NCBI RefSeq assembly: GCF_030812315.1
Contig: NZ_JAUSSM010000013.1
Coordinates: 1-64,000, forward strand
DNA from: Arthrobacter oryzae
Lineage (GTDB): Bacteria > Actinomycetota > Actinomycetes > Actinomycetales > Micrococcaceae
Direction: 5' to 3'
DNA: 64,000 nt
A program made the position numbers and the translations under genes. The notes under the pieces are model-generated. The model was not told the DNA's origin. It saw nothing but the letters and a program-made list of their open reading frames with translations, and searched no databases. Shown here in pieces: positions 37,731 through 53,703 of this stretch (positions within the stretch are counted from its first letter, which is position 1; each line of letters begins with the position of its first letter).

Positions 37731-37772
37731 CGGTTAGGGACCATCCTTGCCCAGCAGGCCTATGTACCGCCC

Positions 37773-37977: not shown

Positions 37978-38589
37978 ATGTCCATACTCGCCACCACTCC
38001 CGAAAGCCAGGCGTTCGGCCTGAAGGCGAAGATTTACGACGACGACCTCCGGTCCCACGGTTACGTCGCCAAGCACACGAAGGACCTGGCCGTGAACCCG
38101 GAGGCGTATGTGGCGTTCGAGGGGCTCATCAGCGCCATCACGCAGAACATGGACGTGCGGCGCTACGAGCTGATCACGCTGGCCGCCGCGCAGGCACTCG
38201 GTTCGGCACACTGCCGTCTGGCCCACGGGCTGAAGGCACTGCGGGCCATCGCCGAGGACGAGCTGGTGCAGATCGCCCGTGACTACCACAACGCGGGACT
38301 GACCCCGGCGGAGGTGGCCATGATGGAGTACGCCGAGCGGCTCAGCACCGACGCGGTGACCATGACCGACGCGGACACGCTCGAGCTGCGGGACCACGGC
38401 TTCACTGACCGGGAAATCCTGGACATTACGCTGGCTGCTGCCGCCAGGAACTATATGAGCCGCACGCTGCAGGCCATCTCCGCGGAAGTTGATGTTCCCA
38501 CCAAGCTTTCAGCCCAGCTCCGCAGCGCCCTGCTGTCTCCCCTGGCACAGTACGGCGCGGCCGCGAAGCCCCGGCACCGCGACGCCTAA
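37978..38589 (+). CDS. Carboxymuconolactone decarboxylase / AhpD-like protein
   Basis: 203-residue helical protein with the AhpD-like core NMDVRRYELITLAAAQALGSAHCRLAHGLKALRA. The usual CxxC of AhpD peroxidase partners is reduced to one Cys (SAHCRLAHG), as in many CMD-domain proteins related to uncharacterised peroxidase-like families. The second half repeats the helical pattern (EVAMMEYAERLSTDAVTMT...DREILDITLAAAARNY). The ATG at 37978 has GAAGAAGGA upstream. Divergent from the SARP-type regulator; a link between them is only positional. Confidence 0.82.
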   Translation: MSILATTPESQAFGLKAKIYDDDLRSHGYVAKHTKDLAVNPEAYVAFEGLISAITQNMDVRRYELITLAAAQALGSAHCRLAHGLKALRAIAEDELVQIARDYHNAGLTPAEVAMMEYAERLSTDAVTMTDADTLELRDHGFTDREILDITLAAAARNYMSRTLQAISAEVDVPTKLSAQLRSALLSPLAQYGAAAKPRHRDA

Positions 38590-38609
38590 CCCCACACGCC
38601 CGCCCCGCA

Positions 38610-38784
38610 ACGCTCTCTCACTTCCTGCCGGTTTTTCGGCGACGCTCTCTCACTTCCTGCCGCCGAATACCAAACGCTCTCTCACCGCCGGCCGGCCGCC
38701 AAGCCGGAATAGGGCGACAGCGTCGCAGAAAAACGTGCAAGTGAGAGAGCATTTGAGAAAAAGGGGCAGGAAGTGAGAGAGCGT
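38610..38784. repeat. 32-bp phased repeat cluster F (three forward, three reverse units)
   Basis: Forward units start at 38610, 38642 and 38674 (32 bp apart). Reverse cores are at 38712 (degenerate, 9 of 12), 38741 and 38773 (29 and 32 bp apart). The cluster lies between convergent genes. Confidence 0.9.
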
Positions 38785-38833
38785 CACCAGAGATAGGGCA
38801 TGGTTAGGCGCCTTCCTCCCCAACCAGGTAGCG

Positions 38834-39394
38834 CTAGGCCTGCCGGCGGTACGTTGCCTCGACCACCTGGTACGGATCGTGGCCGGGCACCATGTTGAGC
38901 ATAGTGATCCGTCCGCCGTTGCCGTCGCCGGGGTGGATGTGGATCTGCCAGCCCCAGTCCGGTCCCGGCGGCGCGGGGTACCAGCCTGTCAGCCGGATCA
39001 CGCCGTCGTCGTCGATGTACCCGTCGAGGGTCAGCCATTCCGGACCGGAGTGGTACGAATCCACCCAGACCGCCGTCGCCCCTTGAGTCCCGGCGGCTGC
39101 TTCCGGCTCCGCCGCGTCCCCTAAGTCGGACGCCGCCGTCGTGTCTCCCGAGTCGTCCCCGTCGAATGCCGCCTCTTCCCCGCCGGACGCCGGTCCGGAG
39201 CCCAGGAGCAGCAGGCCGTTCTGCGGCTTGTCCTCGTGTTGCCATGTGTATTCGATGGTCACGAACGCGCCGGCAGTCACGTTGACGGTCGCGGCTGACA
39301 CCGACTCCTCGTACTCGTCGGTGGGCATGAGCCGCATCCGGTTATGGCCCTGCCAGCTTCCGGTGAACGGCGCCAAACTTTCGATAATCGTCAT
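38834..39394 (-). CDS. Hypothetical protein (DUF1579-like)
   Basis: 186 residues from the ATG at 39394 (MTIIESLAPFTGSWQGHNRMRLMPTD). The N-terminus and the beta-strand pattern (FVTIEYTWQHEDKPQNGLLLLG...WVDSYHSGPEWLTLDGYIDDDGVIRLTGWY) resemble DUF1579-type proteins with a lipocalin-like barrel. An acidic low-complexity insert (residues ~82-112, rich in Gly, Asp, Ala, Glu) interrupts the barrel. No signal peptide. The frame extends upstream to 39613, but that part is low-complexity and overlaps the MFS gene. Function unknown. Confidence 0.7.
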   Translation of the reverse strand: MTIIESLAPFTGSWQGHNRMRLMPTDEYEESVSAATVNVTAGAFVTIEYTWQHEDKPQNGLLLLGSGPASGGEEAAFDGDDSGDTTAASDLGDAAEPEAAAGTQGATAVWVDSYHSGPEWLTLDGYIDDDGVIRLTGWYPAPPGPDWGWQIHIHPGDGNGGRITMLNMVPGHDPYQVVEATYRRQA

Positions 39395-39452
39395 ACCGGC
39401 AGTCTGGCGGGTGAGCAGCGGTGCCGCCAGCCCGGCACGCCGTACTCTGCAG

Positions 39453-40679
39453 CTAGTAGTTCCGCCGGTGCTTGAGCCGCGGAATCGTGATGGCGAAGAC
39501 GACGGCGGCGGCGAACCCCAGCACGCCGGTGGCCCACACGCCCGCCCCCAGTGAGACTGCCGCGGTGACGCCGGAGAGCAGCACGGGGCCGCCGGTGGCG
39601 CCGGCGTCGGCAATAAAGCGCCAGAGTCCCAGGAACTGGCCGCGGCCGCGGTCCGGGGAGAAGTCGGCCCCGAGGGTCATGATCAGGCCGGAGCTGATGC
39701 CGTTGCCGAACCCGATCAGCAGCGCCGCGAGCAGCAGGCCCACAAAGGTGCCCGTCAGCGGGATGAGCATCAGGGCGGTGCCCATGATCACCGTGGACGG
39801 GATGGCCACCCATTGGCGGCCCTTGCGGTCCATGAGCTTGCCCGCAGGGTAGAACACCAGCATGTCGATGGCCCCGGACAGGCCGTAGATCAGGGAGGCG
39901 TGCGTGGCGTCCATGCCCAGGTTGTCCGCCCACAGCGGGATGACCACCTGGCGGGAGGCGCGCAGTGCGCTGAGCAGCAGGATGCCGGCGCCGACGGTGA
40001 GGAATACGCCGGCGTGGGACCTGGCGATGCCGCGCATGGTGGGCTCGGGTCCGTGGTGCGCGCCGCCCGAACCGGCAACAGCAGGCAGGTCGGGGATGGT
40101 GATGGACAGGACGGCCGCGGCTGCCATGGCGGCGACACCCACCCAGTACGCGCCGCTGATGCCGGCAAACTGCATCACGCCGGCGCCCACGAACGGTCCG
40201 ATGAAGATGCCGACCCTGCTGACGCCGCCCAACGTGGACAGAGCCCGGGCGCGGAAGGCCACCGGCACCGCCTCGGTCAGGTATTTCTGCCGGGCCAGGC
40301 TGAAGACGCTTGCGGCCATTCCGACGACGATCATCGCCACGGCGAGCAGCCACAGTCCGTTGGGAATCACCGAGGACAGCCCTGCCGCCGTCAGCGCCAG
40401 CGCGCCGGCCGCGGCGGCCCCGACGATGGACCAGCGTTCGCCGAATTTGAGTGTGATCAGGGAGGCTGGCAGGTTGAAGAACCAGGAGCCCAGGCCGATG
40501 AGCGTGACGATCAGGGCAGCCACGGCGACGGACGCGCCGAGGTCGCGGGCGGAGAGTGCCACCACCGGGAGCACCGCCCCTTCGCCGATGCAGAACAGCA
40601 GCGCCGGTCCGAATGCGGGAACGGCAATGCTGCGAAGGCTGAAGGCTTTGGTGGCTTGCGCGGAGGTCATCCCCTTCAT
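39453..40679 (-). CDS. Major facilitator superfamily transporter
   Basis: 408-residue membrane protein with 12 expected helices, of the drug/metabolite exporter type. Visible are FNLPASLITLKFGERW with the loop-2 region, LARQKYLTEAVPVAFRARALSTLGGVSRVGIFIGPFVGAG (motif C-like gating helix) and AGKLMDRKGRQW. The ATG at 40679 is chosen because the longer frame has no supported start; MTSAQ nine bases later is an alternative. A ~156-bp piece of this gene (40214-40369) is duplicated at 50778-50933. Substrate unknown. Confidence 0.85.
   Translation of the reverse strand: MKGMTSAQATKAFSLRSIAVPAFGPALLFCIGEGAVLPVVALSARDLGASVAVAALIVTLIGLGSWFFNLPASLITLKFGERWSIVGAAAAGALALTAAGLSSVIPNGLWLLAVAMIVVGMAASVFSLARQKYLTEAVPVAFRARALSTLGGVSRVGIFIGPFVGAGVMQFAGISGAYWVGVAAMAAAAVLSITIPDLPAVAGSGGAHHGPEPTMRGIARSHAGVFLTVGAGILLLSALRASRQVVIPLWADNLGMDATHASLIYGLSGAIDMLVFYPAGKLMDRKGRQWVAIPSTVIMGTALMLIPLTGTFVGLLLAALLIGFGNGISSGLIMTLGADFSPDRGRGQFLGLWRFIADAGATGGPVLLSGVTAAVSLGAGVWATGVLGFAAAVVFAITIPRLKHRRNY
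40214..40369 (-). repeat. 156-bp direct repeat, left (original) copy inside the MFS gene
   Basis: Nearly identical to 50778-50933 in the same orientation, with roughly ten mismatches counted by eye. The two copies bracket the SLH-protein island. Confidence 0.9.
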
Positions 40680-40845
40680 CCTATGATCCCGCCAGGACGG
40701 GTGTTTCAGGTCCGGACCATCGCGGTTTCCGCGGCGGCATGAGTATTGATTGTCGGACCGCAATTACTATGGCATTCTTTGGATGTCGCTGCGCTTCCGG
40801 GGCCAGCGAATCCTGGGGGCTACCGGACGTTTCGTCGCTGCATTA

Positions 40846-40882
40846 TTTCCCCCGGCTCACGTCTATTTGGGGGAAACAATTG
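40846..40882 (+). promoter_or_regulatory. Hairpin masking the ribosome-binding site of the first SLH gene
   Basis: TTTCCCCC (40846-40853) is fully complementary to GGGGGAAA (40869-40876), which is the only Shine-Dalgarno-like tract before the TTG at 40880. The structure could control translation; no ligand domain is recognised. Confidence 0.5.
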
Positions 40883-42574
40883 CATATCTTTAGCGGCGCC
40901 CTGCGCCTTGCGCGCCAAAGTATTTCCAGATGCGCAAAAATGGCAGTGGGCGCCTTGACGTGCCTTGCCCTGGTGTCGGCAACGTTGCTCGTGGGCACTC
41001 CTGCCGCGCAGGCCGCCGATCTGGTCGGCGGAGAAACGATCGACAGAAGCAACCAGGAGCAGATCGTCGACGTCTTCAACGGCATTAATGACTTCAGGGC
41101 TTCAATTGGACTGAACCGTGTGAATTTCAATGCCACTGTTTCGGAAATGGCTGAAGACTGGTCTGACCACCTGGCAGCATCGGGCGAGTTTTACCACAAT
41201 CCAGATTTTTACTCCGACCCCCGGGTTGCGGGACGCCTGAACGGAGCGGCCGAAATCATTGCGGCCCGGTCAGATTTCTCGGGTCAGGGCCTAGTGGACC
41301 AGTGGATCTACTCGCCGGGGCATAACGCAATCATGAGCGATCCGGGCCTCACCACCATCGGCGTGGGGATCTCTACGATCAGGGACGGCTCTCCGAGTGG
41401 CCTCCGCTTATACGGCACGGTGAATTTCTTTACCTTTTGGAATCCGCCAGTGGGGATGTACACCACCGCCCAGGACTTCTTTGACGGCAAGCCCTCCATC
41501 GACACGCCACAGATAATCACGGTCGACGTACAGGACCCGGTATTTGACGACACGCTCAACACAGTTACTATTCCCGAAATGGAGGGCGTGGATTACCTCC
41601 TGAACGGGGTTTCTGCGCTGCCGGGAACGCACAACGCGGCTGAAGGTCGCATGGTTGTTACCTATGTGGCCAAGTCGGGATACCGCGTTTTTGGGCCGGC
41701 GTATTGGGACCATGTGTTTCTCCCGCCGCCCAAGGAAATCGTCCCCGTCGCCCCGACGTTCAACGGCGAAACCGGCCAATTCACCGTTCCCTATATGGAA
41801 GGTGTCCAATATTGGGTTAATGATTCGATCTGGGGTTCATCAACCTTCAGCAGCGAATGGGACACAACCGTCTACATCCGGGCCGAAGCCCTCAGTGGCT
41901 ACAAGCTGAGCGGCACTACATCCTGGCAGTACTACTTTGCCAAACCGGACCAGCCCGCTGACCCGGGCCCGGTCACACCCACGGAGCCGGCCGGCAGCTT
42001 TACCGACATCCCCGCGGGAACCCAGTTCGCCGCCGAGATCAACTGGCTAGCCGGCCGCGGCATCAGCACCGGCTGGGTTGATGGCAACGGCGATGCTACC
42101 TACCGGCCCCTTACTCCGGTCAACCGCGACGCCATGGCGGCCTTCATGTATCGCCTGCTGGGCGAGCCGCCCTTCAATGCCCCTGCCACCTCTCCGTTTG
42201 CGGACATGGCCGGGGGCACCAAGTTCTACAAGGAAATCACCTGGCTCGCGGATAAGCGCATTTCCGCAGGCTGGGAAGCCAACGGCGTGCGGACGTACCG
42301 CCCGGTAACGCCCGTCAACCGGGATGCCATGGCTGCCTTTTTGTACCGGCTCGCCGGCGAGCCGGACTTCACTCCCCCGCTCGCCTCGCCTTTCGTGGAC
42401 GTGGATACGAGCAATCAGTTCTACAAGGAAATCACCTGGCTTGCCGCGCAGGGCATTTCCACCGGCTGGGACGAAGGAAACGGCAGGATTACCTTCCGCC
42501 CCCTCTCCGCCGTCAACCGCGACGCCATGGCCGCTTTCATGTACCGCTGGAACACGAAATTCGGGCGGCCGTAA
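40880..42574 (+). CDS. Secreted CAP-domain protein with three C-terminal SLH-like repeats
   Basis: 564 residues from a TTG start preceded by GGGGGAAACAA. Signal peptide (residues ~1-45, ending TPAAQA), then a CAP/SCP domain (~58-180) with GEFYHNP, AAEIIAARSD and SPGHNAIM, two ~75-residue beta modules (FTVPYMEGVQYWVND type), and three ~62-residue SLH-like repeats of pattern FxD...QFxxEIxWLAxxGISTGW...YRPLxPVNRDAMAAFMYR. There is no LPXTG, so attachment through the SLH-like repeats is likely. A longer ATG frame from 40739 lacks a signal peptide. The paralogue downstream has the same start context. Confidence 0.85.
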   Translation: MHIFSGALRLARQSISRCAKMAVGALTCLALVSATLLVGTPAAQAADLVGGETIDRSNQEQIVDVFNGINDFRASIGLNRVNFNATVSEMAEDWSDHLAASGEFYHNPDFYSDPRVAGRLNGAAEIIAARSDFSGQGLVDQWIYSPGHNAIMSDPGLTTIGVGISTIRDGSPSGLRLYGTVNFFTFWNPPVGMYTTAQDFFDGKPSIDTPQIITVDVQDPVFDDTLNTVTIPEMEGVDYLLNGVSALPGTHNAAEGRMVVTYVAKSGYRVFGPAYWDHVFLPPPKEIVPVAPTFNGETGQFTVPYMEGVQYWVNDSIWGSSTFSSEWDTTVYIRAEALSGYKLSGTTSWQYYFAKPDQPADPGPVTPTEPAGSFTDIPAGTQFAAEINWLAGRGISTGWVDGNGDATYRPLTPVNRDAMAAFMYRLLGEPPFNAPATSPFADMAGGTKFYKEITWLADKRISAGWEANGVRTYRPVTPVNRDAMAAFLYRLAGEPDFTPPLASPFVDVDTSNQFYKEITWLAAQGISTGWDEGNGRITFRPLSAVNRDAMAAFMYRWNTKFGRP

Positions 42575-42643
42575 GCCCGCACACCAACAAGCGTCATCGC
42601 CAGGTCTTACTGAGAATGCTCACCAACATTAAGGGGAAATCAA

Positions 42644-44005
42644 TTGCACCAATTCACTGCGCGCCTGCGTTCGCTGCAGAATCCATGGACTGCACGCAAG
42701 GCAGCGGCTGCCCTAACCTGCACCGTGCTGCTTTCGGCCACCTTCTTTGTGGGCGGCACAGCAGCTTCTGCCGCTCCCGGAGCCGCCGGCACCGAAACGT
42801 CCGACACCGCCCAGGTTGAGCAGGTGGGGACACCGGCGATCGCGCCGGCGCCCGCCTCGGCCGAGCAACCGGCCGCAGGAACCGAGGGCCTGCCGAACTT
42901 TCCGGCAGCTCCGCCGCTGACGGCCGACGGCGGTCCTGTCACCGAAGGCGCGGCAGTCGCCGGCGGGACCATCGACAGGGCGAACAGCCAACAGATCGTC
43001 GACGTCTTCAACGCCATCAACGCCTTCCGCGCCTCGAAAAGCCTGCAGCCCGTGACGTTCAATGCCACGGTGTCGGAAATGGCAGAGGACTGGTCCGACT
43101 ACATGGCCAGCAGCGGCACTTTCGAGCACAACCCGAATTACCATACTGACCCGCGCGTGGCAGACCGCTGGAACTGGGCAGCCGAAATCATCGCGGGCCG
43201 TCCGGACTCCTCGGGAGCCGGGCTGGTCGACCAGTGGATCGCATCGCCTGGCCACAACGCAATCCTGAGCGATCCCAACTTCACCACCATCGGCATCGGC
43301 ATCGCCCGGATCGCCTCCCCGGAATACCTTCTGGGCACGGTCAACTTCTTCGACTTCGCAGTGCCGCCGGCCGGAACCTACGCCACGGCCCAGGCCTTCC
43401 TGAACGGTGGATCCGAAGTCGGCGTGCCGTTCGCGGATGTGCTGTCCACTACGCAGTTCGCGGACGAGATCCACTGGCTGGCCAGCCAGGGCATCAGCAA
43501 CGGGTGGAAAGAAGGGAACGGCACAACCACCTACCGGCCCGTCACACCGGTCAACCGTGATGCCATGGCAGCGTTCATGTACCGGTTTGTGGGCGAACCC
43601 CCGTTCAACGCGCCGCAATACTCCTGGTTCGCGGACATTCCTCCCGGAACGCAGTTCTACAAGGAGATCAACTGGCTGGCAGCGTACGGCATCTCGGGCG
43701 GCTGGGACGAAGGCAACGGCCAGTTCACGTACCGCTCGCTGACACCGGTGAACCGTGATGCCATGGCCGCTTTCCTTTACCGGCTGTCTGGCAAGCCTGC
43801 GTTCACTCCCCCGGCCACGTCGCCGTTCGTGGATGTGTCCACCAGCAACCAGTTCTACAAGGAGATCACCTGGCTGGCCTCCATGGAGATCTCCACCGGC
43901 TGGGACGAAGGAAATGGCAAGGCGAGCTACCGTCCGCTGAACTCGGTCAACCGGGACGCCATGGCCGCATTCATGTACCGCCTGGCCATGGCCTACAGCG
44001 GCTAA
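42644..44005 (+). CDS. Secreted CAP-domain protein with three SLH-like repeats (second paralogue)
   Basis: 453 residues starting at TTG 42644, preceded by AGGGGAAATCAA. The signal peptide ends near GTAASA, followed by an Ala/Pro/Glu-rich linker, a CAP domain (~105-245) sharing the segments NATVSEMAEDWSDYMA and QWIASPGHNAI with the gene before, and three SLH-like repeats from ~260 to the end. The beta modules of the first paralogue are missing. It lies 69 bp after that gene in the same direction and ends at a hairpin at 44026-44061. Tandem duplication with domain loss or gain is the simplest origin. Confidence 0.87.
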   Translation: MHQFTARLRSLQNPWTARKAAAALTCTVLLSATFFVGGTAASAAPGAAGTETSDTAQVEQVGTPAIAPAPASAEQPAAGTEGLPNFPAAPPLTADGGPVTEGAAVAGGTIDRANSQQIVDVFNAINAFRASKSLQPVTFNATVSEMAEDWSDYMASSGTFEHNPNYHTDPRVADRWNWAAEIIAGRPDSSGAGLVDQWIASPGHNAILSDPNFTTIGIGIARIASPEYLLGTVNFFDFAVPPAGTYATAQAFLNGGSEVGVPFADVLSTTQFADEIHWLASQGISNGWKEGNGTTTYRPVTPVNRDAMAAFMYRFVGEPPFNAPQYSWFADIPPGTQFYKEINWLAAYGISGGWDEGNGQFTYRSLTPVNRDAMAAFLYRLSGKPAFTPPATSPFVDVSTSNQFYKEITWLASMEISTGWDEGNGKASYRPLNSVNRDAMAAFMYRLAMAYSG

Positions 44006-44025
44006 CCTTAGGTCTGCGCGCAACA

Positions 44026-44061
44026 GAAGCCGGTCACGGGAACCCCCGTGGCCGGCTTCTG
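44026..44061. terminator. Bidirectional terminator hairpin (copy 1)
   Basis: AGAAGCCGGTCACGGG (44026-44041) pairs with CCCGTGGCCGGCTTCT (44046-44061). It lies between convergent SLH genes; an almost identical hairpin is at 47984-48018. Confidence 0.85.
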
Positions 44062-44100
44062 CATTTCAGTTGTGAGGCAGATGGCCAAAATCGACCGGAG

Positions 44101-46062
44101 TTAGAGACCGCCGAATTTGCTGTTGTACCGATGCATAAACGCCGCCATCGCATCACGGTTGACCGGCTCGAGGGAACGGTAGACCCGGGACGACGTCGGT
44201 GGGGAAACAAGGTAATTGTCCACGGTCCATCCCGTGCTGATTCCGTTGTTCGCGAGCCATTCGATCTCTTTGAAGAACTGGCTGTCAACGGGAACATCAG
44301 CGAAAGTTCCATGGGGTGAGTAGCCGGGAGGGTGCGGCCCCGGGGCCGGAGGAGGTGGCGGGAACGCCTTGTCGCCGGCGAAGCGGTACATGAATGCCGC
44401 CATGGCATCCCGATTGACTGGTTGCAGGGGGCGGTAAGTCTTACTGCCGTTCGCCTCCTTCCAGCCGGTGGAAATGTTGCGCTCCGAGAGCCAGGTGATT
44501 TCCTTGTAGAACTGGGTGTTCGGCGTGACATCGCCAAATGGGGAGACGGCGGGCGGCGTGTACAGAGGGCTTCCAGCGAGCCTGTACATGAAGGCGGCCA
44601 TGGCGTCGCGGTTCACGGCTTGGTAGGGGCGATAGGACCGGGTCCCGTTGCTTTCCTCCCATCCTGTGGACACGCCGTGTTCGGCCAACCACGTGATCTC
44701 GTTGGAGAACTGATTGCCCTTGCCGACGTCGATGAACGAGACCGGGCTGACCGTGTACGTCTGCGTGATTTGGCGGGATGCGTTGCCCGTGACGTCGACC
44801 GCCACATAGCGGATGGTCGTGTTCGTGGTAAGTCGGATTGGTGCCGTATACGGCGTGGAATTTTGGGTGGGAACGGTGCCATCAGTGGTGAAGTAGATGG
44901 CGGCAATCTCGTCAGGGATCAGGGCAACCGACTGCCCCACGGTGTAGGCACCAGTTGCCGGTGTGGCTTCAACCCCGGGTGCTGTGCTGTCCCGAACGGG
45001 TATCACTGGTACAACGTACACCTGCTGCTCTGGACGCGAGGTGTTGCCGGCGAGGTCCCGGCCGATGTAGCGAAGTGTAGTGTTCCCAGCCAGGGCGATG
45101 GGCTTGCTGTATCTGGGGCTGGATGTCGTCGGGGTGCTTCCGTCAGTGCTGTAAAAGACGGCGGCGGTTTCGTCTGCAGTCAGCCTCACGCTCTGGCCTT
45201 GGACATAGTCCCCTCCGGCGGCCGACGCCGTAACTAGCGGTGCCGTGACATCCACTGGAGCAGGGGCCGCCGGCGGAGGCCCTGCTGCAATGATGTCCGA
45301 CGGCGCGCTTGTCTTTGAGACTGTGGCCCACTCTGGTCGCCAGCCTGTCATGGTTACCGTCATCCGGTGGCCGAGGTCTGCTGTCGTGAGCGTATACAGC
45401 CGCCCCGTGGCGCCATCTATATGTACCCCGTCGCGAGCCCACTGATACGAAAAGCTCAGGGCGGAGTTTTCCCAAGACTGCCATACCCCGGAGGTCAGGA
45501 AGGTGCTCTTGGCGGCCAGTATGTGCCCTACTGCCATGTTTCCGTGGTTGGAATCGTCGAGTACTACGACTGGAATGGGCGGATCGACGTAAGACTGCAC
45601 TGATCCGATAGGAACCGTTGGGGCGCTGGTTTTGGCCGTGGTGACGTAACCGGGTTTGGATCCAGTCACGGTGACTGCGAGCGCCTTGCCCTGGTCAGCA
45701 TCGGTTAGCGTATACGAACGCGTCGTGGCCCCGGGTATAGCGGCCCCGTCGCGCTTCCACTGGACGTGGACCGTTGCTTCGGGGGTGAGGGAACAGGCGT
45801 TCGTTCCGAGTGTTCGGCCAACGTTGAAGCGGCCTCCGACGCTCGGTGCGTCAAGTTCCACATAGGGTGCAACCGACGTCTGAACATTGCAGAGTCCGTT
45901 GCCCCCGCCGGTGCCGTCGTCGGAGCAAACGGCAGACCCATTTGGTGCCACGAAGCAAGCTTCAGCGGCACGTGCGGGCGGCACGTCTCCCCCGATCGCG
46001 ATGATGCCCATCACTGACAAGACAATCGCTGCAGGCACAGCGAAAAACATTCTTGTACGCAA
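44101..46062 (-). CDS. Secreted Ig/chitobiase-like repeat protein with three SLH-like repeats
   Basis: 653 residues from the TTG at 46062, preceded by a GGGGGG tract; an ATG four codons later (46050) is the alternative. The signal peptide is FFAVPAAIVLSVMGIIAIGG...ARA. The next part has two ~85-residue modules of the kind ATVHVQWKRDG/GATTRSYTLTDADQG, then two CHB_HEX_C-type Ig-like modules (AVFYSTDGSTPTTSSPRYSKPI and AIYFTTDGTVPTQNSTPYTAPI), then three SLH-like repeats. The modules suggest adhesion or polysaccharide binding. It is the only leftward member of the island. Confidence 0.85.
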   Translation of the reverse strand: MRTRMFFAVPAAIVLSVMGIIAIGGDVPPARAAEACFVAPNGSAVCSDDGTGGGNGLCNVQTSVAPYVELDAPSVGGRFNVGRTLGTNACSLTPEATVHVQWKRDGAAIPGATTRSYTLTDADQGKALAVTVTGSKPGYVTTAKTSAPTVPIGSVQSYVDPPIPVVVLDDSNHGNMAVGHILAAKSTFLTSGVWQSWENSALSFSYQWARDGVHIDGATGRLYTLTTADLGHRMTVTMTGWRPEWATVSKTSAPSDIIAAGPPPAAPAPVDVTAPLVTASAAGGDYVQGQSVRLTADETAAVFYSTDGSTPTTSSPRYSKPIALAGNTTLRYIGRDLAGNTSRPEQQVYVVPVIPVRDSTAPGVEATPATGAYTVGQSVALIPDEIAAIYFTTDGTVPTQNSTPYTAPIRLTTNTTIRYVAVDVTGNASRQITQTYTVSPVSFIDVGKGNQFSNEITWLAEHGVSTGWEESNGTRSYRPYQAVNRDAMAAFMYRLAGSPLYTPPAVSPFGDVTPNTQFYKEITWLSERNISTGWKEANGSKTYRPLQPVNRDAMAAFMYRFAGDKAFPPPPPAPGPHPPGYSPHGTFADVPVDSQFFKEIEWLANNGISTGWTVDNYLVSPPTSSRVYRSLEPVNRDAMAAFMHRYNSKFGGL

Positions 46063-46277
46063 AAAGAGACCCCCCAAAGAAAGCCGCAACGGCTTATGGA
46101 CGGATCATAACTCAACCGGGACAAGTTTTGGGTGAATTGAATGACGCCTGCTACCTTCAGCTCAAGACACAAATAAACGCCCTTGGTTTCCAGAGGTGGG
46201 TGTCTGTTTTTGGGGGAAAACAGATCGCCTGCTTTAGGCGTGCCCCATTCGTGCGCAATGGGAATGGAGATTTTCAC

Positions 46278-47966
46278 ATGGTTTCAGTCGAAACAATGGA
46301 TGCGATTCAAGGATTACCGGGAACCAAACAGCGGATTCGCGGCAGGACGAAAAATACCTGGGGGAGAGCGGCCCTCGGTGCCGTGCTCGCCTCGGTTCTA
46401 GCCGCAGGAGCGGCGGTCGCTGGGCCAGCTGCTTCGGCACAAGCCACCGGGCCCGCAAATGTCGAGAGCGGGCCAGTCGCCATCCCGGTTGGTCAAAGCC
46501 CGGGATCGTTGAAGTTCAACCGCGCAGGTACCCGCGCCTATGTGGCGAACCAGGGTTCAGGCACCGTCTCTGTCATAGACACAGCGACGAACTCAGTGCA
46601 GGCAACGGTAGCTACTGGCAGTTCCCCCGGTTCAGTTGCCGTGAGCCGTGACGCCGCGCGCGTCTACGCAGCTGGCTCGACCGCGAACGGTGGCGGCACT
46701 GTCGCCGTCATCGATGCCTCCACCAACACCCTGACCACTACCATCGACGTAGGATCGTTTCCCGGTCACCTGGAAACCAGCCGCGATGGCCGGTACCTGT
46801 ATGTCGGCAAGATATTCGAACTCAAAGTCGTTGACACCCAGACAAATAGCGTTATCTCAACCGTTCCCCTGCCGCAGAACCCGATGGAATTGCTGCTGAA
46901 CGCGGACGGGTCCCGGCTCTACGTGACCACCCAGAATGGCAACGCCGGTGCGGTGCTGGCGTTGGACACGGCCAGCAAGACCGTCGTCGCAACGATCCCC
47001 ACCAAGGGCACGCCGGGAACCATGGTCATTGATGCCAACCTGGGACGCATGTATGTGGGCGAGCCGAGCTGGAACAGTGTCACTGTTATCAATACGGCCA
47101 CCAACCAAGTTTCATCCACTACAGCTCTGTCCGGTCCACCGATGGACGGAAGCCTGGCTTTGGATCCGACCGGAAAACGCCTCTACACCAAGTACTCGGG
47201 TTTTCGACTTGAGCAGCGCGACACGTTCACCACTGTCATGGAGCAAAGCACGGCCCTCAGCGGCCCGTCAAAGATCATTGCCAACCTCAGCGGCCGCGGC
47301 GGCGGGATGTCGGTTAGCCCCTCCGGTGGCAACCTCTACGTGCCGATGTCGGACCGCAACACTGTGACCGCGGTACCCCTTGCCCCAGCCTTCGCCGATG
47401 TGCCCGCCGGTACCAAGTTCGCCGCCGAGATCAACTGGCTGGCTAGCCGGGGCATCAGTACAGGCTGGGAGGACGGCAACGGCACTGCGACGTACCGTCC
47501 CCTGACTCCGGTCAACCGTGATGCCATGGCAGCCTTCATGTACCGCCTCGCAGGCAAGCCCGCTTTCACGGCTCCGGCCGTCTCCCCCTTCGCGGACATG
47601 GCCCCAAGCACCCAGTTCTACGCGGAAATCACCTGGCTGGCGGACCAAGAAATCTCAACCGGCTGGGAAGCAAACGGCATACGCACATACCGTCCCGTAA
47701 CGCCTGTGAACCGCGACGCCATGGCCGCATTTATGTACCGGCTAGCCGGCGAGCCCGCATTCACGCCCCCGGCCACCTCGCCGTTCATGGATGTGGATAC
47801 CAGCAACCAGTTCTACAAGGAAATCACCTGGCTGGCCGACCAGGGCATCTCCACCGGCTGGGGCGAAGGAAACGGCCAGGCAAGCTACCGGCCGCTGACG
47901 CCAGTCAACCGCGACGCCATGGCCGCCTTTATGTACCGCTTCGACAGCAAGCACGGCGCAAAATGA
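46278..47966 (+). CDS. Secreted beta-propeller protein with three SLH-like repeats
   Basis: 562 residues from the ATG at 46278, which has GGAGA eight bases upstream. The signal peptide is long (GRAALGAVLASVLAAGAAVAGPAASAQA, ending near residue 55). Six or so YVTN-type propeller blades follow (AYVANQGSGTVSVIDTATNSVQATV, VYAAGSTANGGGTVAVIDASTNTL and so on), then three SLH-like repeats. Unlike its neighbours it has no TTG next to its G-rich tract (TTGGGGGAAAACAG, 46210-46223), which lies 55 bp upstream in a leader with two small hairpins. Confidence 0.85.
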   Translation: MVSVETMDAIQGLPGTKQRIRGRTKNTWGRAALGAVLASVLAAGAAVAGPAASAQATGPANVESGPVAIPVGQSPGSLKFNRAGTRAYVANQGSGTVSVIDTATNSVQATVATGSSPGSVAVSRDAARVYAAGSTANGGGTVAVIDASTNTLTTTIDVGSFPGHLETSRDGRYLYVGKIFELKVVDTQTNSVISTVPLPQNPMELLLNADGSRLYVTTQNGNAGAVLALDTASKTVVATIPTKGTPGTMVIDANLGRMYVGEPSWNSVTVINTATNQVSSTTALSGPPMDGSLALDPTGKRLYTKYSGFRLEQRDTFTTVMEQSTALSGPSKIIANLSGRGGGMSVSPSGGNLYVPMSDRNTVTAVPLAPAFADVPAGTKFAAEINWLASRGISTGWEDGNGTATYRPLTPVNRDAMAAFMYRLAGKPAFTAPAVSPFADMAPSTQFYAEITWLADQEISTGWEANGIRTYRPVTPVNRDAMAAFMYRLAGEPAFTPPATSPFMDVDTSNQFYKEITWLADQGISTGWGEGNGQASYRPLTPVNRDAMAAFMYRFDSKHGAK

Positions 47967-47983
47967 CCGACTAGACAAGAAAT

Positions 47984-48018
47984 AGAAGCCGGTCATGGGA
48001 ACCCCGTGGCCGGCTTCT
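47984..48018 (+). terminator. Terminator hairpin (copy 2)
   Basis: AGAAGCCGGTCATGGG pairs with CCCGTGGCCGGCTTCT, the same sequence as the hairpin at 44026-44061 with minor changes. It follows the propeller gene by 17 bp. Confidence 0.85.
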
Positions 48019-48063
48019 GCCGTTCACTGGCCCGGGCATCGGGCACCGTGGCAGACTGCCACC

Positions 48064-48771
48064 ATGGGGGACGGAACAGAAGCAGGCGGGTCAAAAGCAG
48101 ACGGACAGCAAGGACCTGCCCGTGACCGGAAGACGCTCACCAAACGCCAGCAGGCGCTCCTGTACTTCAACACCACCCGCCGCAAGTTCTGGGCGGGTGC
48201 CGCCCTGGTGGCCGTGTGGTTCCTGCTGATGGTCTTGCTCGACGACCGGCCGTACCTGGAGCTGATTCCGAACTTCGTCCTCTACGCCGGCATCCCTATC
48301 CTCTGGGTCCTGTTCACGCACGGTGCAGGGCTCATCAAACCGGTGCCGATGCCTGCGGACATCATGCGCCAGGACGCCCCGGGCCGGTTCTCCAACCAGG
48401 AGGAATGGGAGTCGCCGCTCCCGCCGGAGGAGGCCTTCGCAGCGCTGCAGGAGCTTTTCACACAGACCGGTGTGCGGACCGAGGTGATGGACGCCAGCCT
48501 CTGGGTCGAACTGGGCAAGGAGTGGCAGGCTGCCGAGTGGTGGCATCGCGATGCCGCCCCGCACATGAAGCGCCGCCCGTCCCTGCTGTTCTTCGTCCAA
48601 GCGGCCGACGGCGGTTCGAGGGTCACGGCGTTCAGCGTGGACCGTGCGCTCGGCGGGCTGTACGACGTCGTGAAACTGTCGGACGAAATGTCCGCCACCG
48701 CCGTCGGACTTGCCCGGAAAGCCACCGGCGCACCGCCGCAAGCAAAACCGCCCAAAGGCCGGCGAAAATAG
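48064..48771 (+). CDS. Membrane protein of unknown function
   Basis: 235 residues from the ATG at 48064. A basic N-terminus (RDRKTLTKRQQALLYFNTTRRKFW) precedes two membrane helices (GAALVAVWFLLMVLL and LIPNFVLYAGIPILWVLFT), and the soluble C-terminal part faces the cytoplasm by the positive-inside rule. No family is recognised. It interrupts the series of SLH genes, has no SLH-like repeat itself and is short of a good ribosome-binding site. Function unknown. Confidence 0.7.
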   Translation: MGDGTEAGGSKADGQQGPARDRKTLTKRQQALLYFNTTRRKFWAGAALVAVWFLLMVLLDDRPYLELIPNFVLYAGIPILWVLFTHGAGLIKPVPMPADIMRQDAPGRFSNQEEWESPLPPEEAFAALQELFTQTGVRTEVMDASLWVELGKEWQAAEWWHRDAAPHMKRRPSLLFFVQAADGGSRVTAFSVDRALGGLYDVVKLSDEMSATAVGLARKATGAPPQAKPPKGRRK

Positions 48772-48861
48772 CCATTGTTCGACTTGGTAATCCGGCCCGA
48801 ATAGACTTCGCTCACTCGCACTTTTCCGGGTGCCGTTTGCATTCATAATCTGGGGGAACAA

Positions 48862-50460
48862 TTGAAGATGCTGGAGCGGCCCAAAACTTTGGGTCCAGTA
48901 ATCCTTGCGGTGATTCTGTCACTGCTGTTTATGACGTCGGTGCCGGCCACAGCCGCTGGCGGCGCCACCATCAGCGGCACAGTGTCCGTCCCTCAAGGGA
49001 CGGATATCAAGAATGCGTACGTGGCAATTTTGGGCACGAACTACTCGCGGCAGGTCGGGGTTTCGGCGGACGGTTCGTACCGCTTCGATGAGCTCGGCGC
49101 CGGAACGTACAAGGTGCGTTTCGATTACCAGTCCTGGCCCAGCGCGGACACTCCACGCCCGGCCCCGCAGTGGTTCAAGGGCGGTGCCACGTTCAGCCAG
49201 GCCACACCCATCACGGTTGCCGCCGGCCAGAGCCTCAGCGGTATTTCGGCAACGCTCGACGCCGGCGCTTTCATCAGCGGCAAGCTCACGGTGCCTTCCG
49301 GGGTGGACGCCTCGAAGGTCAGGATCGTCGCCAGTGAGACCGGCAATGCGAGCTACCTGCATTCCGCCACCGTATATGCGCGGGCCGGCGGCAGTTACGC
49401 ATTTTCGGGGCTCCCGCCGGGCCGGTACCAGCTGTACTTCTCCTCGCAGGACCGCGCCGGCGGCGGCATTGTCAGCGCTTACCACGGCGGATCCACCGAG
49501 GCAGCAGCAAAGGTCCTGGACGTCCCGCACCTCGGCGGCATCAACAATGTGGACCAGGTGCTCACAGCGGCCGGCGCCATCACCGGTACGGTCACGGTGC
49601 CCGAGGGCATCTCGCCAGCGGGCGTCCACGTCACCGCTTATCCGCAGCACGGATCCACCCGGACTCCCAGCGCCCGGGTAGGTGCCGACGGAAAGTTTGA
49701 CATCGGCTATGTCACGCCCGGGACGTATAAACTCCTCTTTGAGGCGGCGGGCCTTGACCCGCAGTGGTACGGCCAAACTGAGTCGGCCGACGATTCGCCC
49801 CTGCTGACGGTGGCGGCTGGCCAGACCGTGTCAGGGCTGCACGAAACCATCCAGCTCACCGCGCCGGCGTCACCGCTGGTGTTCGCGGACGTTCCGCCGG
49901 GCACTCAGTTCGAGACGGAGATCAACTGGATGGCCGGCCAGGGCATCAGCACCGGCTGGATTGACGGCAACGGCACCAAGACCTACCGCCCGCTGGCGCC
50001 AGTGAACCGTGATGCCATGGCGGCCTTCATGCACCGGCTCGCGGGGAAGCCCGATTTCTCGCCGCCGCCCGTCTCGCCGTTCGCAGATCTTGCGCCGGGT
50101 GACATGTTCTACAAAGAGATCGTTTGGCTGTCTGCCCGTTACATCTCCACCGGCTGGGATGAAGGTAACGGCATCAAGACGTTCCGCCCGAGCCAGCCGG
50201 TCAACCGCGACGCCATGGCCGCGTTCATGTACCGGCTGGCGGGCAAGCCCGCGTTCAATCCCCCGGCAGTGTCCCCGTTCGCGGACGTCACCAAGGACAA
50301 CATCTACTATCACGAGATCACCTGGCTCGCGGCCCAGGACATCTCCACGGGCTGGGCCGAAGCGGGCGGCACCAGGACGTTCCGCCCCCTGCAGGAAGTG
50401 AACCGCGACGCCATGGCCGCGTTCATGTACCGCTTCGCTTCCAAGTTCAGCGCGGTGTAA
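48862..50460 (+). CDS. Secreted carboxypeptidase-regulatory-like repeat protein with three SLH-like repeats
   Basis: 532 residues starting at TTG 48862, directly after TGGGGGAACAA; an ATG two codons later is possible. Signal peptide VILAVILSLLFMTSVPATAAG. Three ~100-residue beta-sandwich modules follow (ATISGTVSVPQGTDIKNAYVAI, AFISGKLTVPSGVDASKVRI, GAITGTVTVPEGISPAGVHV), each with a G-TY-KxxF strand, of the carboxypeptidase-regulatory/CnaB-like fold. Three SLH-like repeats end the protein. A perfect hairpin follows the stop. Confidence 0.86.
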   Translation: MKMLERPKTLGPVILAVILSLLFMTSVPATAAGGATISGTVSVPQGTDIKNAYVAILGTNYSRQVGVSADGSYRFDELGAGTYKVRFDYQSWPSADTPRPAPQWFKGGATFSQATPITVAAGQSLSGISATLDAGAFISGKLTVPSGVDASKVRIVASETGNASYLHSATVYARAGGSYAFSGLPPGRYQLYFSSQDRAGGGIVSAYHGGSTEAAAKVLDVPHLGGINNVDQVLTAAGAITGTVTVPEGISPAGVHVTAYPQHGSTRTPSARVGADGKFDIGYVTPGTYKLLFEAAGLDPQWYGQTESADDSPLLTVAAGQTVSGLHETIQLTAPASPLVFADVPPGTQFETEINWMAGQGISTGWIDGNGTKTYRPLAPVNRDAMAAFMHRLAGKPDFSPPPVSPFADLAPGDMFYKEIVWLSARYISTGWDEGNGIKTFRPSQPVNRDAMAAFMYRLAGKPAFNPPAVSPFADVTKDNIYYHEITWLAAQDISTGWAEAGGTRTFRPLQEVNRDAMAAFMYRFASKFSAV

Positions 50461-50475
50461 CGGCTACAAAACACT

Positions 50476-50513
50476 GGAGGCCCCGGACTGTCACAATGAC
50501 GTCCGGGGCCTCC
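50476..50513. terminator. Terminator hairpin after the last intact SLH gene
   Basis: GGAGGCCCCGGAC pairs perfectly with GTCCGGGGCCTCC around a 12-nt loop, between convergent reading frames. Confidence 0.85.
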
Positions 50514-50528
50514 GACTTCAAGCGCAGG

Positions 50529-50768
50529 TTAAGCGGCTGAGTGCTTAAGGTTGAATCGGTACATGAAGGCTGCCATCGCATCGCGGTTTACCGGGAGGAG
50601 AGGGCGGTAGCTCTTGGCGCCGTTCCCCTCGTCCCAGCCGGTGCTGATTTCCTGGGACGCGAGCCAGCCAATCTCCTTGGCGAACTGGTTGTTCACGGCA
50701 ACGTCAGTGAAACCCGGTGCTTGGGTGGAGTCCGGACTACCGCCGAACCGGTAGAGGAATGCTGCCAT
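50529..50768 (-). pseudogene. Truncated SLH-like gene remnant
   Basis: 79 codons encode the last piece of an SLH protein: the end of one repeat (MAAFLYRFGGSPDSTQAP) and one full repeat (FTDVAVNNQFAKEIGWLASQEISTGWDEGN...NRDAMAAFMYR). Everything upstream (signal peptide, N-terminal domain, earlier repeats) is missing. The break falls inside the conserved NRDAM motif (here RGAM), where the duplicated MFS fragment begins within ~10 bp. It is most likely not expressed as a functional protein. Confidence 0.85.
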
Positions 50769-50777
50769 CGCGCCGCG

Positions 50778-50933
50778 GCCTGCTCACGCCCCCCAACGTG
50801 GACAGAGCCCGGGCGCGGAACGCCACCGGCACCGCCTCGGTCAGGTATTTCTGCCGGGCCAGGCTGAAGACGCTCGCGGCCATCCCGACGACGACCATCG
50901 CCACGGCCAGCAGCCACAGTCCGTTGGGGATCA
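50778..50933 (-). pseudogene. Duplicated fragment of the MFS transporter gene (right 156-bp repeat)
   Basis: Encodes a near-identical copy of an internal MFS segment (PNGLWLLAVAM, SVFSLARQKYLTEA and ARALSTLGGV follow one another) found at 40214-40369. It has neither the start nor the end of the gene and is fused to the SLH remnant. It marks the right border of the SLH island. Confidence 0.9.
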
Positions 50934-51071
50934 TCCTGTGGCCCGGGTTCCGACGTCGGCCCCGCGGGGAATCCGACGCACATGCGGGGGTCACAAAAGG
51001 CCTCGAGAGGACTACCGTTTGCCTTGTGGGGTACTTACACGTGTGCCCGTCACCAAAAGGAGGATCGTCCC

Positions 51072-51437
51072 ATGGGCGAAGTGTGGATACGCACGGTCAA
51101 CAACAGCCTGGTCCGCGGCAGCATGGTCACCGAGATCGCTTCCACCCGCGGGTCCCTTCATGAGGACCAGGGCTACGCGCTGAAGGTCATCCTGGACGGC
51201 AAGGCCCACGTACTGATCGACGACGGCGAGCTCCGGGGCTCGCTGACCGAACGGCTCGAGTATGCCCGGAACCTGGAGGACGCCCTGCTGCTTGCCCTGG
51301 ACGAGGCAGGACGGATGGGGGCGTCCGCGGTGGTGGAGCACGATCCGGAGCGGGACCGGTGGCAGGTTATTGCCGGCGCGGAACTGGATGGTAGTGTCCA
51401 GGCCGGCTTCAACGCTGCGGCAGGTTCACGCGTGTAA
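51072..51437 (+). CDS. Conserved-looking hypothetical protein
   Basis: 121-residue soluble protein starting at ATG 51072 after a strong AAAGGAGGA. The sequence alternates beta-rich (MGEVWIRTVNNSLVRGSMVTEIAS, ALKVILDGKAHVLID) and helical (SLTERLEYARNLEDALLLALDEAG) parts, ending in WQVIAGAELDGSVQAGF. No catalytic motif or named family is recognised. Good ribosome-binding site and codon use support expression. It is 60 bp upstream of the NAD(P)-binding protein gene in the same direction. Confidence 0.7.
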   Translation: MGEVWIRTVNNSLVRGSMVTEIASTRGSLHEDQGYALKVILDGKAHVLIDDGELRGSLTERLEYARNLEDALLLALDEAGRMGASAVVEHDPERDRWQVIAGAELDGSVQAGFNAAAGSRV

Positions 51438-51497
51438 GAAAGTCGGCGCTCCCTTATCGTGCCGGGATTGGCTGCCTGCCAGGAAAGGAAGCACGCT

Positions 51498-52256
51498 ATG
51501 AAGATCGCCGTTGCCGGGGGAACCGGAACTGTCGGTCACCAGGTGGTCAGCATCGCCAGGGACCGAGGGCATCAGGTGGTGAGCGTGAGCCGTGCAGACG
51601 GCGTGGACCTGGTCACCGGCCGCGGCCTCGACGAGGCACTCCGGGGTGTGGAGACGGTCATCGACGTTTCCGGCATTCAGACTAGGTCGACCAAGAAGGC
51701 CGTGGACTTTTTCACGAACAGCACCCAGAATCTGCTGGCTGCCGAGAAGAAGGCCGGAGTGCGCCACCATCTTGCCCTCTCGATTGTGGGCATCGACACG
51801 GCGACGTCGGGGCTATACGCGGGAAAGTTGGTGCAGGAGGATGCGGTCCGGCACGGCGGTGTGCCCTGGACGCTCCTGAGGTCAACCCAGTTCCACGAGT
51901 TTGTGCCGATGACCGTCGGCATCGCTTCACTGGGCCCGCTGGTGCTTGTTCCGCAGATGCGGACCCAGCCGGTGGCGGCGCGGGAGGTGGCGGAGGCGCT
52001 GGTGGATGCCGCAGAGGCAGGGCCGAGTGGCCCCATGGCAGACCTCGGCGGGCCACGCGCGGAAGAACTGGACGACCTCGTCCGCGCCTACCTGCAGAAA
52101 TTCCGCATGCGGAAGCAGATCGCGAAACTGTTCATCCCCGGTTCCATGGGCAAAGCCATGCGCAGCGGCGACCTCATCCCCAAGCCGGGTGCCGCCGTCG
52201 GACGCCAGACGTTCCAGGAGTGGCTGGAGACGGACGCCTCTTCCCCAACTAGGTAG
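51498..52256 (+). CDS. NmrA/atypical SDR-type NAD(P)-binding protein
   Basis: 252 residues from the ATG at 51498 (AGGAAAGG upstream). The N-terminal MKIAVAGGTGTVGHQVVSIARDRGHQVVSVSR is the Rossmann GGTGTVG motif of NmrA-like atypical short-chain dehydrogenases; the usual YxxxK catalytic pair is replaced by YAGKLVQE, so activity is uncertain. It may sense or use NAD(P)H. The last codons and the TAG stop lie inside a 66-bp palindromic repeat, so the C-terminal PTR is repeat-derived. Confidence 0.85.
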   Translation: MKIAVAGGTGTVGHQVVSIARDRGHQVVSVSRADGVDLVTGRGLDEALRGVETVIDVSGIQTRSTKKAVDFFTNSTQNLLAAEKKAGVRHHLALSIVGIDTATSGLYAGKLVQEDAVRHGGVPWTLLRSTQFHEFVPMTVGIASLGPLVLVPQMRTQPVAAREVAEALVDAAEAGPSGPMADLGGPRAEELDDLVRAYLQKFRMRKQIAKLFIPGSMGKAMRSGDLIPKPGAAVGRQTFQEWLETDASSPTR

Positions 52257-52309: not shown

Positions 52310-52332
52310 CAGGTGAAGCGAAAGGAGAAGGC

Positions 52333-53703
52333 TTAGACGTACCCGTCCACAATCGCGGCCGCGATCTCCTTGTAGGCGCGGCGGGTTTCCGGGCGCAGCA
52401 CGTCGAGGGTGACCAGGTCTCCGTCGGCCACTCCGCGGTCGTGCGGGACGGCGATCAGCTGCCGGCAGATGCCCGAGAGGTGTTCCTCGATGGCGTCCTT
52501 GTCCACGCGGGAGGAGACCTCGTCCTTGTCCGTGATCACCACGATGGCGTTGCGGGCCAGGTCCTCGTAGCCGTGGTGAGCGAGCCACTGCAGGGTGCTG
52601 CGGGCACGCTTGGCGCCGCTCACCGCGTACCCGGCGGCGATCACCAGGTTGTCGGCGGACTGCAGGATGCCGCTCATGGCGTTGTGCGTGACGCCGGTGC
52701 CGCAGTCGGTCAGGGCCACGGAGTAGTAGCCGGAAATGAGCTTGCGGATGCGGAGGTATTCCTCGGCCGTGAGCGAGTCCGAGACTTCCGGGTCCTGCTC
52801 CCCCGCGATCAGGTGCAGCCGCCCGGCGTGATGCATGTAGCGGGCCAGCGCCGTGAGGGAATCGACCGATTCGATGTTCTTGAGCAGGTCCGTGATGGTG
52901 CGGGGGCTGGCCTGCTGGTAAATGCCTTCGCCCAGGGCGCGCTCCACGAGGTCGCCGGAGTCCGGGTTGGCGTCGATGGCGCACGGGGCGTCGCCGCGGA
53001 ACTCGGCGAGGGTCAGGCCCACGCCCACGGTGGTGGAGGTCTTGCCGATGCCGCCCTTGAGGCTCAGCACGGCGGTGTTGTAGCTGCCCTGCAGCTGGCG
53101 GGAGATCCGCCGGCCCAGTTCGTCCTCTTCACGCTGGCGCGGGCCGGGGCCCAGGTTGATCGCCCCGCCGGTCATGGCGAAGAGGGCGCCGCGGAAGCCG
53201 CCGCGGGGGCGCGGCTTCTGCTGGCGGACAAAGGAACCCGGTGAGGTGATGAAGTCGGACACGGGCGCGTCCGCTGCCGCCAGTTTCGCGGCCTGGCGCG
53301 AGGTTCCGCGCTGCGCGGGAACAGCGGCAGGAGCCGTCTCTTGAGGAGCAGCGGCCGACGGCGGCGTGCTGGGTTCTGCGGGGACGGCCCGGCGGGAGGT
53401 GGCCGGCTGTGAGGTGGGGAGGGCGGGTGCGGACGCCGACACCGGGGACGGCACTTCGGCAGGAGCCTCCGGACCGGCCTCCACTTCCGCCTGCGCGTCG
53501 GCGACGGCGGCCGCTTCAGCCCAGGAAGTCCGTCGGGTGGGAGCGGTGCGGCTGTTGTTCGGAGTTGCAGCGGCGGGCATGGTTCCTGTCCGGGCATCCG
53601 GAGATGCACCGGCCGGGCGACGGAGGTCGCGGCGGCGGCGCGTCTGGGACTGCCCTGCATTTTTTGCAGAGGCTCGTGCGTTTTTATCGGCCGATTCGGG
53701 CAT
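52333..53703 (-). CDS. MinD/ParA-like ATPase, EspI type
   Basis: 456 residues: a Pro/Ala/Ser-rich disordered N-terminal half (~1-190), then a SIMIBI-class ATPase. The deviant Walker A is SLKGGIGKTSTTVG, followed by CAIDANPDSGDL and TDCGTGVTHNAMSGIL. This architecture matches EspI/MinD-like proteins linked in actinobacteria to type VII secretion, where they act as energy- or localisation-related regulators. No ESX genes (WXG100, EccC) occur nearby, so it is an orphan here and its partner is unknown. Confidence 0.82.
   Translation of the reverse strand: MPESADKNARASAKNAGQSQTRRRRDLRRPAGASPDARTGTMPAAATPNNSRTAPTRRTSWAEAAAVADAQAEVEAGPEAPAEVPSPVSASAPALPTSQPATSRRAVPAEPSTPPSAAAPQETAPAAVPAQRGTSRQAAKLAAADAPVSDFITSPGSFVRQQKPRPRGGFRGALFAMTGGAINLGPGPRQREEDELGRRISRQLQGSYNTAVLSLKGGIGKTSTTVGVGLTLAEFRGDAPCAIDANPDSGDLVERALGEGIYQQASPRTITDLLKNIESVDSLTALARYMHHAGRLHLIAGEQDPEVSDSLTAEEYLRIRKLISGYYSVALTDCGTGVTHNAMSGILQSADNLVIAAGYAVSGAKRARSTLQWLAHHGYEDLARNAIVVITDKDEVSSRVDKDAIEEHLSGICRQLIAVPHDRGVADGDLVTLDVLRPETRRAYKEIAAAIVDGYV

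Follow-up and report, generated by a model that had tools for sequence, protein, structure and literature searches.

In homology-facilitated illegitimate recombination, described in Escherichia coli, one end of an incoming segment is joined by homologous recombination and the other with little or no homology; in related single-crossover products a piece of the anchor gene is left beside the insert. In the report on E. coli conjugation (PMC3240628), such single-crossover products made up the majority of the clones recovered, the duplicated part of the anchor gene measuring 109 to 950 bp. Of the four true one-sided integrants, three lacked homology where the illegitimate end was joined. A mechanism akin to this has been proposed for the type VI secretion system of Vibrio cholerae, where a new module arrives beside a conserved anchor, the resident modules are displaced and shifted and broken pieces may remain; Rhs loci are also mentioned in the available part of that report (PMC5361080). 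In Streptococcus pneumoniae, transformation can produce merodiploids by unequal exchange, in which a tandem second copy of chromosomal DNA remains; in the available part of the report these are mostly about 100-900 kb, unstable and formed via repeats (PMC3784515). Here we describe a locus of Arthrobacter oryzae that shares features with each of these systems. It lies in the window, that is, in the first 64,000 nucleotides of contig NZ_JAUSSM010000013.1 (assembly GCF_030812315.1), where a cluster of genes for SLH surface proteins (the island) is bracketed by two copies of an internal piece of an MFS transporter gene. The repeat looks like an ordinary recombination scar, a fragment of another MFS allele that stayed behind where two forms of the region were joined, and not like a device for moving or excising the cluster.

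There are clear differences from the described systems. The E. coli events were laboratory-selected and had kilobase inserts, whereas the block here is about 10 kb, its duplicated piece would since have lost 309 bp and the whole event is inferred from sequence. Unlike the V. cholerae modules, the locus has no effector-immunity logic; the displaced gene is a transporter gene, the module encodes SLH proteins and only one scar of this kind was found. Where the S. pneumoniae merodiploids carry large second copies, all that is present here is a 155-bp remnant.

The two repeat copies lie in direct orientation at 40215-40369 and 50779-50933. They agree at 147 of 155 positions (94.8%), leaving 8 mismatches, and their longest shared run free of mismatches is 53 bp. 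A preliminary description of the locus had reported a near-exact direct repeat of 156 bp; such a repeat does exist, with a length of 155 bp, as the first base then counted (40214/50778) is mismatched. The same description placed the left copy inside the MFS gene, which is borne out by its position at codons 104-155. When the repeat is searched against the 5.15-Mb assembly, the other copy is the sole second match (E = 2.8e-65), and in a self-comparison of the window (at least 60 bp and at least 85% identity) the two copies are the only pair.

The sequences on either side of the right copy indicate what it is. To its left, SLH homology reaches 50778 in a minus-strand SLH gene that is missing its N-terminal part. 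To its right, from 50934, the DNA is 96% identical to the upstream region of the MFS gene in G148 (G numbers denote the compared genomes, G000 being the A. oryzae genome itself, and G148 is its sister). Read rightward, the order is therefore an internal 155 bp of MFS, followed by the region of the start codon and by the upstream flank. Because G148 has the sequence from 50933 onward directly upstream of its MFS gene, the right piece is collinear with an MFS gene that would formerly have faced ORF121, the next gene to the right; we call this lost gene MFS'. Compared with the left copy, 309 bp of MFS' (103 codons, residues 2-104) are gone, with a 3-bp TCA microhomology, and the start codon is in frame with codon 105. 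What is left in the scar is a 65-aa in-frame mini-MFS with its own start codon.

One explanation offered in the preliminary description was that an MFS-SLH block had been duplicated in tandem and had then suffered a deletion. The right piece is indeed more similar to the left copy (94.8%) than to the MFS gene of any other genome (92.9% at best), as such a duplication predicts. However, the 5′ side of the right piece runs into the MFS-ORF121 intergenic sequence, as in G148, and not into SLH1, the first SLH gene of the island, as a duplicated block would. Furthermore, the left copy is equally far from the MFS gene of G114 (8 mismatches, the same count as to the right copy), and the two copies differ in private as well as shared changes. 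We regard this explanation as very improbable.

The mismatches themselves are informative. Seven of the eight are synonymous third-codon changes and the eighth replaces Ile with Val; under random codon position, at least seven third-position differences in eight would be expected with P = 0.0026. When six related genomes are used to polarise the differences, four changes prove private or nearly so to the right copy, all of them at third positions and all synonymous in the frame of the mini-MFS. At site 40365 five of the six related genomes agree with the left copy, and both genomes with a class B MFS gene (described below) agree with the right. The left copy in turn shares its state with G063 at 40320 and with G114 and G063 at 40331. 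Since the mismatches are of the synonymous third-position kind, the copies represent two alleles that grew apart while both were functional, one of which was probably truncated only recently on the time scale of their divergence. That said, selection on the remaining 65-aa frame may yield the same synonymous pattern. The proposal that the mismatch count could serve to estimate the age of the bracket has to be rejected, because the count measures divergence between functional alleles.

It had also been suggested that the island arrived with a duplicated target, and that recombination between the repeats could excise it as a circle of about 10.5 kb. An island that is present in some genomes and absent from others, bracketed by direct repeats whose longest perfect stretch is 53 bp, has the appearance of such a mobile element inserted with a duplicated target or attachment (att) site. 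Perfect identity over 53 bp is enough in principle for rare RecA-dependent recombination, and exchange by this route through the repeats may be possible. However, target-site duplications are short and initially identical, whereas this repeat is 155 bp long, its copies are imperfect and synonymously diverged, and the right copy is fused to the MFS upstream region with 309 bp missing, so a duplicated target is not supported. An att site would come with an integrase and with repeats that recur with the island in relatives. Neither an integrase nor a transposase came up when the six complete island proteins and the remnant of the SLH gene were scanned with Pfam, and the islands of four relatives (G114, G123, G063 and G141) lack the repeat. 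Excision would also damage MFS: a crossover between the copies is predicted to leave an MFS gene without residues 2-104, in frame from the fused start codon, and to carry the 5′ part of the good copy away on the circle, with the loss of the only full-length version of these residues. As a useful device, the excision envisaged earlier is not supported. The bracket is probably without excision function, and a mobile element is a highly improbable explanation for it.

The arrangements found in related genomes place the locus in context. In G148, window positions 37610-40685 and 50933-54863 are adjacent, with an 8-bp overlap and no island between them. The MFS gene of G020 likewise lies beside ORF121 without the SLH island. 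These are the genomes, with an MFS gene and an empty site, that the preliminary description had recommended looking for, and so the island is a presence/absence segment between the MFS gene and a gene for a ParA-like ATPase. In G114, G123, G063 and G141, SLH genes do lie between these two genes, and each genome has one match to the 155-bp sequence. These four carry an island with no right-hand fragment, the finding that the preliminary description had named as making the bracketing incidental. Absence of ORF121 from genomes with a class A MFS gene was judged from alignments scoring 150 bits or higher in the retrieved stretches; there was none in those of G114, G123, G063 and G141. Neither SLH genes nor ORF121 occur in the MFS-ParA interval of G101 and G059.

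We also queried 204 genomes, our own included, with the 155-bp right copy. There were matches in 182 of them, and two matches only in G000 and G051. As the second MFS match of G051 is a 74% copy on a different contig, the bracket is private to G000 among the genomes searched. The A. oryzae assembly is a draft of 38 contigs and the joints are known from the assembled sequence only, which would suit an assembly or mis-join artefact. However, the bracket is internal to a 74-kb contig, and the order to the right of the joint is the same as in G148. Mis-assembly is unlikely to produce two copies that differ by 5%, and we find an artefact scarcely credible.

The gene neighbourhood is informative on a wider scale. 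At the 39 named ORF121 loci an MFS gene lies to the left on the opposite strand in 35 cases, and within 200 bp in 17; the loci without an MFS match are L109, L132, L133 and L134. Three SLH queries gave no match between MFS and ORF121 at any of the 39. On this basis the ORF121-MFS neighbourhood is an old one. The spacing between the MFS gene and the ParA-like gene ranges from 74 bp to 104,874 bp, with a median of 3,256, in the 102 genomes where both best-listed matches could be hand-paired on one contig, although the ParA match in distant genomes may be a paralogue. The MFS-ParA interval is a region of gene turnover in the genus. MFS matches are found in 148 of the 150 genus genomes, our own included (one of them, G082, at an E-value of 8.6e-4 only), and the ParA-like gene has matches at E ≤ 0.001 in 180 of 204 genomes.

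Two observations concern the surroundings of this interval and its anchor gene. Positions 36600-37400, part of a regulator-like gene (36348-37730), are unaligned in G148, G059, G141 and G020 and align at 74-87% in G114, G123, G063 and G101, a further small variable segment to the left of MFS. The match to the MFS gene of G106 (G106:C5:68261-69364) is split into two adjacent parts (query 3-975 and 1096-1231), and an internal stretch of that gene seems to be missing.

The MFS genes compared fall into two classes. Class A consists of the left gene of G000 and those of G114, G123, G063, G101, G059 and G141 (88-96% identical), class B of those of G148 and G020 (91% identical), and the two classes are 81-84% identical to each other. 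The left MFS gene has the class A state at 85 of 98 informative sites, the class B state at 9 and another at 4; for the right fragment the counts at 17 informative sites are 15, one and one. An exchange anchored in this gene would be expected to change from recipient to donor ancestry within it. The first two informative sites of the left gene (39543 and 39579) are G148-like, and from 39683 it is mostly class A; but the MFS gene of G148 may be the replaced one. In a careful tree, built from 28 of the 50 MFS sequences of a quicker one, the left MFS nests with G063 and G114 (support 98/97). A clade of the MFS genes of G000 and G148 is rejected by the approximately unbiased (AU) test with p-AU 3e-60; the groups for these tests were picked after seeing identity tables or trees. 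The trees of the flanks place G000 with G148 and then G141, with support of 100/100 for 27-36 kb and 99/98 for 52.3-55.8 kb. As the left MFS goes with G063 and G114 and its flanks with G148, this allele has a history other than that of its surroundings.

The quick tree held 50 MFS sequences; L109 (no match) and L130 (partial) were dropped, and L096 (the G148 contig) and L132-L134 were not entered. It joined class B to a Pseudarthrobacter-rich group with support of 1.0, a placement that we dropped since the careful tree leaves the position of class B open. We also looked for a single named donor for the block and found none: the MFS gene points to G063 and G114, SLH2 to G141, and SLH1 to G123 at 77.6% only.

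We think it likely that the locus results from an incomplete allelic exchange with one homologous and one illegitimate end, in either direction. Two arrangements would have existed beforehand, one with MFS facing ORF121 and with NmrA and the ParA-like gene beyond, the other with MFS followed by the SLH surface-protein cluster. The left half of the island haplotype (MFS-SLH) would have become fused to the right half of the ORF121 haplotype (MFS'-ORF121-NmrA-ParA). At one end of the exchanged DNA the joining would have been by homologous recombination, most simply inside MFS. The other end would be an illegitimate joint that broke an SLH gene and linked it to an internal part of the ORF121-facing MFS allele. 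A later 309-bp deletion, with the 3-bp microhomology, would then have reduced the second MFS to 155 bp. The order of these events, the site of the homologous end, end joining at the other and the choice of recipient are all reconstructed from the arrangements seen today.

An exchange of this kind should place a foreign block beside an anchor gene that offers homology, and MFS, as a nearly universal gene of the genus whose left allele is anomalous relative to its flanks, is such an anchor; the foreignness of the SLH genes is less clear. The other end should have little or no homology, and here the change from SLH to MFS homology is abrupt, between 50778 and 50779. The genome encodes Ku, an end-joining protein, so end joining is possible, which is suggestive only. 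With regard to direction, we lean tentatively, at a little less than an even chance, towards movement of the island into an ORF121 chromosome, because the flanks and the MFS gene disagree. However, the class B MFS of G148 may itself be a replacement, and either haplotype may have been the recipient.

Several points weigh against an incomplete exchange. In the E. coli report (PMC3240628), one-sided integrations are about a million times rarer than homologous recombination. They mostly involve about 1 kb, come with a matching deletion and show 3-10 bp of microhomology, whereas our block measures about 10 kb; and the authors are sceptical that such events lie behind natural insertion-deletion loci. 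At our locus the joint at 50778/50779 has no clear microhomology. The fragment is class A, yet the flank to which it is fused comes nearest to G148, a genome with a class B MFS; this would call for an ancestral class A MFS beside ORF121, for the gain of class B by G148, or for at least one further exchange. The AU test does not reject classes A and B as a single clade (p-AU 0.216). In the quick tree the 155-bp fragment, which is too short to resolve in a tree, is basal to class A plus G047, G010, G061 and G083 (0.846), and so outside class A proper. Moreover, the left MFS is G063/G114-like and SLH2 is closest to G141 (89.6%, compared with 80.7-83.3% for G063, G114 and G123), so the whole block cannot be traced to any one of the sampled genomes. 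The similarity of the SLH genes to those of G141 would also fit old vertical inheritance of the island and its loss in G148.

This last point leads to an alternative in which the island came first. The SLH island would have been inherited vertically beside MFS, and DNA carrying MFS'-ORF121-NmrA would have entered from the right, its homologous end lying in NmrA or the ParA-like gene and its illegitimate end in an SLH gene. SLH2 and the CarboxypepD-SLH gene have their nearest counterparts in G141, which agrees with what the flank trees predict, and the SLH gene at the joint is truncated on the island side. From 50934 to about 53,300 the sequence is 92-98% like G148 in all 200-bp bins. However, the G148-like right flank requires no import, because G148 is the sister genome, and the anomaly of the left MFS relative to its flanks is left unexplained. 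We consider an island-first history somewhat unlikely.

The coordinates of the genes and features discussed here are collected in Table 1.

Table 1. Genes and other features between the MFS and ParA-like genes, in window coordinates.
Feature	Coordinates	Strand	Basis or remark
Full-length MFS transporter gene, left copy, anchor of the interval	39453..40679	-	PF07690, E 1.2e-46
Left repeat copy	40215..40369	+	MFS codons 104-155
SLH1, CAP + SLH surface protein	40739..42574	+	PF00188, PF00395; real start probably internal to the open reading frame
SLH2, CAP + SLH surface protein	42644..44005	+	Pfam scan; 89.6% DNA identity to G141
CHB_HEX_C_1/Fn3_assoc + SLH protein	44101..46089	-	Pfam scan; beyond the SLH part, little aligns to compared relatives
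Beta-propeller (lactonase/YncE-like) + SLH protein	46053..47966	+	Pfam scan; real start probably internal to the open reading frame
258-aa protein, no Pfam match	47995..48771	+	Pfam scan
CarboxypepD_reg + SLH protein	48862..50460	+	81-85% DNA identity to G063, G114, G123, G141 (G141: 763 bases only)
SLH gene remnant, N-terminal part gone	50529..50778	-	Homology to 50778; sub-threshold PF00395, E 0.025
65-aa frame of the scar, runs into SLH remnant	50737..50934	-	Predicted; MFS' start codon in frame with codon 105
Abrupt joint of SLH remnant and MFS interior	50778..50779	.	SLH homology ends at 50778, MFS homology begins at 50779
Right repeat copy, piece of a putative second MFS allele (MFS')	50779..50933	+	Class A at 15 of 17 informative sites
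MFS-ORF121 intergenic sequence	50934..51071	.	Immediately upstream of MFS in G148
ORF121, 121 aa, no Pfam match, old divergent neighbour of MFS	51072..51437	+	
NmrA/NAD(P)-binding protein	51498..52256	+	96% DNA identity to G148
MinD/ParA-like ATPase gene, right anchor of the variable interval	52333..53703	-	CbiA/MinD/ParA 24.9 bits, cut-off 25.4

The island proteins are built like the SLH cell-wall proteins of other Gram-positive bacteria, with SLH repeats on varied extracellular domains, and most of them have three SLH motifs. Of the 15 papers shown from a listing of 96 on such proteins, 10 deal with Paenibacillus, Bacillus or Brevibacillus, and no title among the 15 refers to SLH genes in Arthrobacter. 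All 16 SLH motif matches in the window fall between the repeat copies. To this extent the earlier statement that all SLH genes lie there is correct; further SLH matches occur on contigs C2, C3, C5, C6 and C9, so the island is not the full SLH set of the genome. For the non-SLH parts of the genes at 44101-46089 and 46053-47966, hardly any equivalent exists in the islands of the compared relatives, and because of this they may be later additions, which would make the island a mosaic. The 258-aa protein encoded inside the cluster (47995-48771) has an 82% DNA match in the cluster of G123.

Dispersed repeats are also found nearby. Between NmrA and the ParA-like gene lies a 66-bp near-perfect palindrome (52244-52309) with two 33-bp arms that are 88% complementary and have no spacer. 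The genome has eight further sites with related copies (78-95% identity), and the palindrome is repeated in the G141 and G020 stretches; it has the look of a dispersed element of the REP-like kind. A second dispersed repeat family is formed by the motif ACGCTCTCTCACTTCCTG, with 30 occurrences in the genome (13 forward and 17 reverse), compared with 0 for the reversed control. Its copies are often paired about 32 bp apart; an inverted pair lies at 38610-38788, and further copies of the motif at 19121, 19153, 25559 and 30702.

A more far-reaching idea is that Arthrobacter genomes swap their SLH clusters as cassettes in the MFS-ParA interval, where MFS would be the shared anchor and scars would be what remains of displaced alleles, and that the 65-aa mini-MFS has been kept and may be expressed and selected. 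We mention this as a speculation that is distinctly unlikely as it stands. What the locus does provide is a well-resolved case of a bracketing repeat that mimics the signature of an insertion and is nonetheless the remnant of a second allele. The two can be told apart by the codon position of the mismatches and by the identity of the sequence beyond the repeat. For the genus, the finding singles out the MFS-ParA interval as a site at which the surface-protein genes vary between Arthrobacter genomes.

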